The position numbers were made by a program, and so were the translations under genes. From NCBI RefSeq assembly GCF_012273515.2, contig NZ_CP050975.2:6014001-6078000 (forward strand): a stretch of 64,000 nt of DNA, read 5' to 3'. Below are positions 16,573-19,354 of the stretch, piece by piece. Position 1 is the stretch's first letter; every line of letters starts with the position of its first letter. Origin of the DNA: Streptomyces sp. RPA4-2 (lineage in GTDB: Bacteria; Actinomycetota; Actinomycetes; Streptomycetales; Streptomycetaceae). The notes under the pieces were generated by a model. That model was given only the letters and a program-made list of their open reading frames with translations. It ran no database searches and was not told the origin of the DNA.

Positions 16573-17979
16573 ATGTCGGTAGGCGAAGAGGTCCGTTCAG
16601 GTCAGGGCAGGCCGCAGCAGAGTCTCGGCACATCGGCCGCGCGGAACCTGGCCACCACCACCAAGTCCGCACCCCAGATGCAGGAGATCAGTTCACGGTG
16701 GCTGCTGCGCATGCTCCCGTGGGTGAACGTGCAGGGTGGCACGTACCGCGTGAACCGGCGGCTCAGCTACTCCGTGGGCGACGGCAGGGTGACGTTCGTG
16801 AAGACCGGTGACCGCGTCCAGGTCATCCCCGCCGAGCTCGGCGAGCTGACCGTCCTGCGGTCCTACGAGGATCAGGAGGTGCTCGGCGAGCTCGCCCAGC
16901 GCTGCCAGCAGCGGGAGTTCGCGCCGGGCGAGGTGCTCGCCTCGTTCGGCAGTCCGTCCGACGAGGTGTTCCTGCTCGCGCACGGCAAGGTCGAGAAGAT
17001 CGGTACGGGTCCCTACGGCGACGACGCGGTCCTCGGCGTCCTCGCCGACGGCGCGTACTTCGGCGAGCAGGCGCTCATCGACCCGGACGCCATCTGGGAG
17101 TACACGGCCCGCGCCGTCACCGCGGTCACCGTGCTCACGCTGCCCCGCCAGGACCTGGAACAGGTCGCGGAGCGCGCCGAGTCCCTGCGCACCCACCTCC
17201 AGCAGCTGCGGGCGATTCCTGAGCAGCGCACCAACAAGTACGGCGAGAAGGAGATCGACCTCGCGGCCGGCCACACCGGGGAGGAGGACATCCCCGGCAC
17301 CTTCGTGGACTACGAGGCCGCACCGCGCGAGTACGAACTGAGCATCGCCCAGACGGTACTTCGCCTGCACACCCGCGTGGCCGATCTCTACAACCAGCCG
17401 ATGAACCAGACCGAGCAGCAGCTCCGCCTGACCGTCGAGGCGCTGAAGGAGCGCCAGGAGCACGAGCTCATCAACAACCGGGAGTTCGGACTGCTCAACA
17501 ACTGCGAGTACGACCAGCGGCTGCAACCGCACGACGGCGTTCCGAGCCCCGACGACCTCGACGAACTGCTCAGTCGCAGGCGCGGGACCAAGCTGCTGCT
17601 CGCCCACCCGCGCGCGATCTCCGCGATCGGCCGCGAGTGCAACAAGCGCGGGCTCGTCCCGGAGAGCGTCGAGATCGCGGGCAACCGCATCCCGACCTGG
17701 CGCGGGGTCCCGATCTTCCCGTGCAACAAGATCCCGGTCAGCGACGCCCGCACGACCTCGATCATCGCCCTGCGTACCGGCGAGGCCGAGCAGGGCGTCA
17801 TCGGGCTCCAGCAGGCGGGCATCCCGGACGAGATCGAGCCGAGTACGTCGGTGCGTTTCATGGGCATCAACGAACAGGCGATCATCTCCTACCTGGTGAC
17901 GGCGTACTACTCGGCCGCGGTCCTCGTCCCGGACGCCCTCGGCATCCTGGAGAACGTCGAGATCGGCCGCTGGCGGTGA
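16573..17979 (+). CDS. eshA: Family 2B encapsulin shell protein with cyclic-nucleotide-binding-like domain (EshA)
   Basis: 468-aa shell protein with an HK97-type fold. A flexible N-arm (1-40) and first shell segment are followed by an inserted cNMP-binding-like domain (about residues 100-215, with [14 protein letters not shown] and YFGEQAL). The main shell fold fills 245-468 ([24 protein letters not shown]). EshA forms large multimers and affects sporulation and antibiotic production in streptomycetes, and was later placed among family 2B encapsulins (established knowledge). In the phosphate cassette, the Arg-Ser of CRP aligns by hand with Trp-Glu (W175, E176), so cAMP binding is doubtful. 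The ATG at 16573 has GGGAGG nine bases upstream. The stop overlaps the prenyl synthase GTG (GTGA). Confidence 0.92.
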
Positions 17980-19157
17980 CCTTCCCGACACCGGCCACCG
18001 TGTTCCCGCCGGACCGGACGGGCAGAGCGGGTGGACCGAAGCCCCAGCAGAGCGGGGCCGAGACCCTCGACGGGCGGAGCCCTCTCGGGGGGCCCATGAA
18101 CGGGGGGCCCATGCGACAACAGGTTCCGCCCGTCCCGCCCGACGGACAGGAGGCGGCGGGCATCCTGGAGCGTGCGCGGGCGTCCGTCGACCCCGAGCTG
18201 CGCAGGGCCGTCGACTCGCTGCCGGGTTCGATGCGCCGGATCGCGCTCTACCACTTCGGCTGGGAGCACGCGGACGGCACCCCGGCGGCGGGCAACGCGG
18301 GCAAGGCGATCCGCCCCGCCCTCGTGCTCACCGCCGCGGGAGCGCTCGGCGGGCAGCACGCGTCGGCCGTACGGGCGGCCGCCGCGGTGGAGCTGATCCA
18401 CAACTTCAGCCTGCTGCACGACGACGTCATGGACCGGGACACCACCCGCAGACACCGGCCCACCGCGTGGACCGTGTTCGGCGACGCCGCCGCGATCCTC
18501 GTGGGGGACGCCCTGCAGGCGCTCGCCCAGCGGCTGCTGGCCGAGGACCCGCATCCGGCGGCCCCGGCCGCCGCCGCCCGGCTCGCGTCCTGCGTCGTCG
18601 AGCTGTGCGAGGGACAGCACTCCGACACGGCCATGGAGAAACGCGGCCCCGGCGAGGTCACCCTCGACGAGTGCCTCGCCATGGCCGAGGCGAAGACGGG
18701 CGCGTTGCTCGGCTGTGCCTGCGCGATCGGAGGGCTCTACGCGGGAGCGGACGAGGAGGACGTCGAGGCACTGGACGCGTTCGGCCGGGAGGCCGGCCTC
18801 GCCTTCCAGCTGATCGACGACGTGATCGGGATCTGGGGGGACCCGAGCCGTACCGGCAAGCCGGCCGGGGCGGACCTCATCGCCCGCAAGAAGTCCCTGC
18901 CCGTGGTGGCCGCGCTCGGCTCCGGCACCCCGGCGGCGACGGAACTCGCCGAGCTGTACGGAGTTCCCTACGAGGAAGGGGAGTTGGAGCGCACGGTGCT
19001 GGCCGTGGAGCGGGCGGGGGGCCGCGACTGGGCCCAGGTCCAGGCGGCCGACCGGATGTCCCGGGCGATGCACGAACTGTCCCGGGCGATCCCCGACCCG
19101 GAGGCCGCGGGTGGTCTCCTGGCACTCGCGGAGTTCGTCACGCGACGCAGTAACTGA
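17976..19157 (+). CDS. Polyprenyl diphosphate synthase, probable encapsulin cargo
   Basis: 393-aa trans-isoprenyl synthase. The first Asp-rich motif is LLHDDVMD (D149, D150, D153), and the second is [12 protein letters not shown] (D281-D289). It should join isopentenyl units to make an allylic diphosphate such as geranyl or longer; product length is not readable. The start chosen is the GTG overlapping the encapsulin stop (GTGA). It adds a 60-residue Pro/Gly-rich, Tyr-free extension ([15 protein letters not shown].. and [18 protein letters not shown]) before the first helix. In family 2B systems, disordered N-termini of this kind load the cargo into the shell. Internal Met codons at 41 and 46 are alternative starts that would remove most of it. 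Confidence 0.88.
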
Positions 19158-19182
19158 AGCCGCCGGACGGCGGTTGAAGACC

Positions 19183-19236
19183 CCGGAGCCACCGGGACCG
19201 TACGGCACCTGACCTCCGTACGGTCCCGGTCTCCGG
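19183..19236 (+). terminator. Terminator closing the encapsulin operon
   Basis: A long stem (19183-19205 with 19216-19236, one 2-base bulge) around ACCGGGACCGTACGG starts 26 bp after the synthase stop. Confidence 0.82.
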
Positions 19237-19354
19237 CCCGGGGCGGCTCCCGCGCATCCCCACGGTGCGCGGGGCCCGCCCCTTCGCCGCGGGTGATCCC
19301 CGCTAGGCTGCGACGGCCGTACGGCCAGGGGCGGTTGAGGCGAAGGGGCAGGAC

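Follow-up and report, generated by a model that had tools for sequence, protein, structure and literature searches.

The stretch of DNA analysed here (the window) comprises 64,000 nucleotides of the Streptomyces sp. RPA4-2 genome and contains a family 2B encapsulin shell gene that is followed, on the same strand, by the gene for a polyprenyl diphosphate synthase, the putative cargo of the shell (Table 1). The shell protein matches NF041163, the NCBI model of family 2B encapsulins, with a score of 770 bits (cut-off 400). It consists of a capsid domain of the SrpI-like HK97 type (PF19307, 450 bits, residues 216-466) and, ahead of the capsid match, a cNMP-binding-like insertion (PF00027, 65 bits, residues 114-201). 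Among proteins of solved structure, the shell matches PDB 9bhu with an E-value of 5.7e-199, and 9bix and 9bje are further relatives, suggesting that it forms a closed icosahedral shell as well. As described in the accessible part of PMC12407261, which deals with a two-component shell studied without cargo, the cNMP-type domains of such shells have been shown not to bind cyclic nucleotides.

Table 1. Features of the shell-synthase locus, in coordinates of the window
Feature	Position	Strand	Size or remark	Family models
Family 2B encapsulin shell gene	16573..17979	+	468 aa	NF041163, PF19307, PF00027
Shell N-arm	16624-16665	+	14 aa; contains LGTSAAR	
Polyprenyl (perhaps geranylgeranyl) diphosphate synthase, putative encapsulin cargo	17976..19157	+	393 aa from GTG	NF041169, PF00348
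GTGA, possible synthase GTG over shell TGA	17976..17979	+	from the sequence; GTG at 17976-17978	
Pro/Gly-rich N-terminal tail, residues 1-55 if the start is GTG	17976..18140	+	pLDDT below 50; fast-evolving	
Tail block aligned with ETL/EIL-RRSPIG of relatives	18057..18095	+	13 aa; alignment with 29 chosen loci	
Alternative inner starts, Met 41 (18096) and Met 46 (18111)	18096..18113	+	each after a G-run without GGAG/GAGG/AGGA/AAGG	
Strongly folding stretch behind the pair	19158..19300	+	no T-run	

The synthase passes the cut-off of NF041169, a model named 'family 2 encapsulin nanocompartment cargo protein polyprenyl transferase' (500 bits, cut-off 450, residues 61-392), and scores 198 bits against PF00348 (cut-off 27), which supports its assignment to the trans-isoprenyl diphosphate synthase family. 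The first Asp-rich motif, DDVMD (D149, D150 and D153), is invariant in an alignment of 30 sequences, and so are D281 and D282 of the second motif, which reads DDVIG, not DDxxD. The best relative of solved structure is 3nf2, a putative polyprenyl synthetase, and the score against the geranylgeranyl diphosphate synthase model IdsB is 366 bits, below the cut-off of 475. A phenylalanine, F144, is located five positions ahead of the first DDxxD motif, which contains no insertion; we take this arrangement to suggest a C20 product. The enzyme would make a linear isoprenyl diphosphate, perhaps C20.

Homologs of the synthase with E-values of at most 1e-100 are present in 232 of 295 Streptomyces genomes sampled across the genus, RPA4-2 included. 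In a first set of loci (the best 80 of 547 related ones, two of which end at contig ends), the shell gene lies directly upstream of the synthase gene, on the same strand, in 78 of the 78 testable loci. The same adjacency holds for all 88 testable loci of a genus sample that omits the weakest synthase matches (89 loci from the 231 other genomes, namely the 29 best and 60 chosen ones, with one at a contig end). Because the two sets may share species, counts pooled over them are not independent. The pair is intact in every testable locus. Both proteins pass the NCBIfam cut-offs, which confirms the families proposed in an earlier note on this DNA. However, several neighboring genes are syntenic too, which somewhat weakens adjacency as evidence of function. 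Among the 62 loci with full flanks, 61 retain an upstream antiporter-like ORF, 55 an amidase-like ORF and 45 a downstream GNAT-like ORF (names assigned by inspecting the translations rather than by matching protein families); a 78-aa upstream ORF is matched in 24 and three further downstream ORFs in none. Synteny alone thus appears to account for part of the shell-synthase pairing. A plasmid search for the shell-synthase junction gave no match.

The type of system to which this pair belongs is widespread and has already been described. The accessible part of PMC8346489 counts polyprenyl transferases in 900 family 2B operons, of which 888 belong to Actinobacteria, and describes disordered N-terminal domains of 50-100 residues in these cargos; according to the part of PMC8049743 that is available, a polyprenyl diphosphate synthase is the most frequent gene neighbor of family 2b shells. 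The novelty implied in the earlier note therefore falls away, both for operons that combine a family 2B shell with a polyprenyl synthase (PMC8346489, PMC8049743) and for the disordered N-termini (PMC8346489). As in the polyprenyl-transferase operons of PMC8346489, as far as its accessible text goes, and of the models NF041163 and NF041169, the gene for a shell with a cNMP domain adjoins that for a polyprenyl synthase whose N-terminus is predicted to be disordered. Unlike in those operons, the clade to which the window belongs has neither the customary spacer nor the ATG, so that translation would begin at the overlapping GTG or at an inner Met; the loss of the usual synthase start is the only unusual trait of the locus.

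The overlap between the shell stop and the possible synthase start carries less weight than its appearance suggests. Of 179 pooled loci, nine of them additional to the two sets, three in which the shell or the synthase was not reached were dropped; in the remaining 176, window included, the shell stop is spanned by GTGA in 147 loci, by ATGA in 15, by CTGA in 13 and by TTGA in one. In the 78 loci of the first set, the shell TGA is preceded by CGG 32 times and by AGG 26 times, so that GTGA arises automatically, and the overlap is for the most part a side effect of the final codon of the shell gene. GTGA or ATGA is present in 162 pooled loci, and from its start codon the reading frame continues without a stop into the synthase in 68 of them: in all 25 loci without an in-frame ATG ahead of the enzyme core and in 43 of the 137 with such an ATG, the window being among these 43. 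It follows that some lineages are likely to use the overlap as a start, whereas in others it arises by accident from the shell C-terminus. Across loci, the association between the loss of a site-supported ATG and an open overlap has the direction that favors a link (odds ratio 0.51, p 0.064). The GTGA pointed out in the earlier note is indeed there, and it may couple the two genes in the window, but it does not serve as general evidence of coupling, given its origin in the last shell codon and the modest share of loci in which it is open.

A different start is recognizable in 118 of the 176 loci, namely, an ATG in the synthase frame that opens M-[GAS]-E or MT[EDQ] and is found at a median distance of 113 nt past the shell stop, with 90 of the 118 at 90-150 nt. 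When the window is aligned with 29 chosen loci, a GAGG-type sequence is seen to precede this ATG in many of them, and both the spacer stretch and the ATG are absent from the window and from L001-L004. Accordingly shortened is the distance from the shell stop to the ETL/EIL block, which in the window is 71 nt less than in L012 and 101 nt less than in L005. The clade of the window would thus have lost the spacer, the ribosome site and the ATG of the other orthologues, and initiation would have moved either to the GTG over the shell stop, with the former leader becoming a tail, or to an inner Met, at about equal odds.

The evidence bearing on these two starts seems balanced. For the overlap GTG, to which we give roughly an even chance, speaks the block of the tail that is homologous to the sequence behind the ATG in relatives, where it would be translated, and that in the window is located upstream of Met 41; in the clade, the GTG is the only ATG, GTG or TTG start noted upstream of this block. 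Furthermore, the frame from the GTG survives length differences of whole codons, with 27, 24, 24, 24 and 27 codons between the GTG and the block in five sequences of the clade, all in frame. Only slightly less credible is a synthase that is likewise cargo but starts at Met 41 or Met 46, so that 17976-18095 would be an untranslated remnant of the leader and the tail would shrink to 10-15 residues. Four clade members (L002, L003, L004 and L103) carry GGGAGG before an inner Met; the corresponding place in the window holds a G-run that a looser ribosome-site rule accepts and a stricter one rejects. Against this start, none of the window, L001 and L202 has a GGAG, GAGG, AGGA or AAGG site at this place, and L001 and L202 have neither GGGAGG nor a G-run. 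The codon-position signal gives the stretch before the AET block no better standing than probably untranslated DNA, which, if anything, favors the inner Met: substitutions at codon positions 1, 2 and 3 number 43, 59 and 66 in five sequences, and the matching stretch of 13 loci that keep the ATG shows a similar pattern (454, 468 and 591), with base composition by position alike. The corresponding counts are 276, 217 and 691 for the whole synthase and, by subtraction of separately aligned counts, about 73, 63 and 66 for the rest of the tail. These numbers indicate that the sequence of the tail is weakly constrained, whether it is translated or not.

Public records are divided in the same manner. 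Among 120 proteins listed, 14 annotated starts were read, of which 12 are named here: P0005 (353 aa, in both ncbi and uniref) begins at the position of Met 41; P0009, P0010, P0015, P0016, P0018, P0023 and P0043 (348 aa) begin at Met 46 or close to it; the upstream start is annotated in P0006 and P0008; and the very close relatives P0003 and P0004 are annotated with the upstream start and the Met 41 start, respectively. The prediction that automatic annotation would often drop the tail is borne out for the clade of the window, in which several records begin at an inner Met, and these records, P0005, P0009 and P0010 for instance, count in favor of the inner start as P0006 and P0008 count against it. 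Automatic calls of gene starts may thus either hide or invent N-terminal tails in this synthase family.

With the GTG start, the synthase would carry a predicted disordered N-terminus of 55 residues, as opposed to 10-15 with an inner Met. In an AlphaFold2 model built from 30 sequences, residues 1-55 have pLDDT values below 50 and no secondary structure, the block means over residues 1-50 are 30-35, and the first helix begins at residue 56. Proline and glycine together make up 22 of these 55 residues, so that the Pro/Gly-rich stretch described ahead of the first helix is real provided that translation starts at the GTG. Strong conservation of the synthase sets in at about E59-A60. The helix start was located by pattern in 170 of 176 loci, and in these our start rules give tails of 10 to 202 residues, with a median of 39; the length depends on the rule, the window having 58 residues under the strict rule and 18 under the loose one. 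Even the longest possible tail, counted from the first ATG, GTG or TTG at or after the overlap, does not exceed 20 residues in 14 of the 170 loci, 13 of which form a CTGA group, such as MTSTDAATEGHEAAALLER, and the other is L136. Such loci speak against the need for a long tail, though not against the synthase as cargo; judging from the orthologues, a long tail is no conserved requirement. The extension had been proposed as a loading feature to be followed across Streptomyces orthologues; its length is not conserved as such a feature, and orthologues that lack it exist in part of the set. The short tails beside shells elsewhere also fit a start at the inner Met. At the other extreme, the synthase tails of L148, L160, L017 and L044 have grown to well over 100 residues, and those of L148 and L160 contain repeated segments of the LHG/PE type.

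The search for motifs in the tails yielded one lead. Of 76 non-redundant tails, 12 contain the pattern RR-x-[PSH]-I-[GAT], compared to a mean of 0.0 and a maximum of 2 in 500 shuffles; it is a lead only, because the pattern was picked after viewing the tails and the tails are related. The pattern [LI]G[TS] was observed 10 times, which is not beyond the shuffles (maximum 11).

Taken together, these observations suggest that the locus belongs to the polyprenyl-transferase type of family 2B encapsulin operons, probably with the synthase enclosed, whichever of the two starts is used. The shell protein would assemble and most likely enclose the synthase encoded behind the shell gene, possibly with a role in channelling. 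A precedent for loading is found in family 2A: in the available part of PMC8049743, the cargo, cysteine desulfurase, enters the shell by way of a disordered N-terminal domain, the removal of which abolished measurable loading. This SrpI/CyD system resembles the pair in the window in its capsid family, PF19307, and in a cargo with a disordered N-terminal domain; it differs in that the shell lacks a cNMP domain and the cargo has conserved N-terminal motifs and tested loading. A literature search, with subscription papers and preprints mostly outside its reach, returned no paper recognizable as a loading test of a polyprenyl synthase.

That the synthase stays outside, with the shell holding another protein or none and the pair tied together by synteny or co-regulation, is improbable. 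The tails share no universal loading motif and several neighboring ORFs are syntenic, which speaks for such an arrangement, yet the pair is intact in all testable loci of both sets, beyond any neighbor tested, and the desulfurase of family 2A provides a case of loading through a disordered N-terminus (PMC8049743, accessible part). If the synthase is enclosed, loading could instead proceed through the folded core or the first helix, with the tail a spacer that is free to change. We consider this unlikely, even though the shell remains adjacent over the whole range of tail lengths, down to tails that cannot exceed 20 residues, and strong conservation begins only near the first helix. The desulfurase without its disordered domain lost measurable loading, as given in the portion of PMC8049743 at hand, and the helix residues L64, E65, R68, P73, L75 and A78 are kept in an aligned non-shell paralogue as well, so that they are not special to the shell-linked enzymes.

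A related possibility, which we regard as a shade more doubtful still, concerns the origin of the tail: in the clade of the window it would have been born by relocation of the start, when loss of the spacer fused the leader to the gene, and tails would be largely free, with loading through bulk composition or the core. Other lineages collapsed the spacer differently and some tails have almost vanished, from which it would follow that both the sequence and the length of the tail are largely free. With regard to the preferred reading, an enclosed synthase, polyprenyl synthases are among the commonest predicted cargos of family 2B (the 900 operons mentioned above), yet the accessible text of PMC8346489 finds no conserved targeting motif identifiable in them. 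Natural relatives, whose tails vary in length from about a dozen to some 200 residues while the shells stay closely related, offer a ready series for probing loading.

Downstream of the pair, the segment 19158-19300 folds with a free energy of -97 kcal/mol (z -6.3), and a scan for terminators with a T-run found none. The strong terminator claimed for this position is thus a very stable fold that lacks a T-run. A stem of at least 12 pairs is present within 110 nt past the synthase in 154 of 176 loci; the gene interior has one in 114 and shuffled sequence in 111 of the 176, so that the 3' stem is only moderately special.

No terpene synthase matching PF19086 is encoded within the 64-kb window, in agreement with the earlier statement that no terpene cyclase adjoins the pair. 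The genome as a whole contains four PF19086 matches, the nearest of which (C1:5999785-6000372, L233) is located outside the window and ends 31.6 kb upstream of the synthase.

The N-arm of the shell bears a sequence of its own interest. The form LGT[ASTG]AAR is near-invariant, being found in 153 of 166 arms of related shells; of the remaining 13, several are truncated by the limits of the extracted sequence, and 10 more shells were not reached. The letters LGTSAAR of the window arm also occur in the consensus of terpene-cyclase cargos, GPTGLGTSAAR, that is given in the available part of PMC8346489, the sole match in a literature search for these letters; terpene-cyclase cargos might mimic the N-arm of the shell itself. 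As a genome-wide finder of cargos, the LGTSAAR pattern was rejected: it has five matches in the RPA4-2 genome compared to three for the reversed pattern, one of the five is the window shell, and the other four look like chance by translation, for example in a gyrase-like protein. The pattern missed even a second family 2B shell of the same genome, the arm of which reads LGTAAAR. This second shell (C1:612060-614594; L082, L092, L234) is 64% identical to that of the window and likewise has a terpenoid enzyme adjoining. Unlike the synthase of the window, which has no such tail, that enzyme is a terpene cyclase, 2-methylisoborneol-synthase-like by reading, with an N-terminal GPSGLGTAG stretch.
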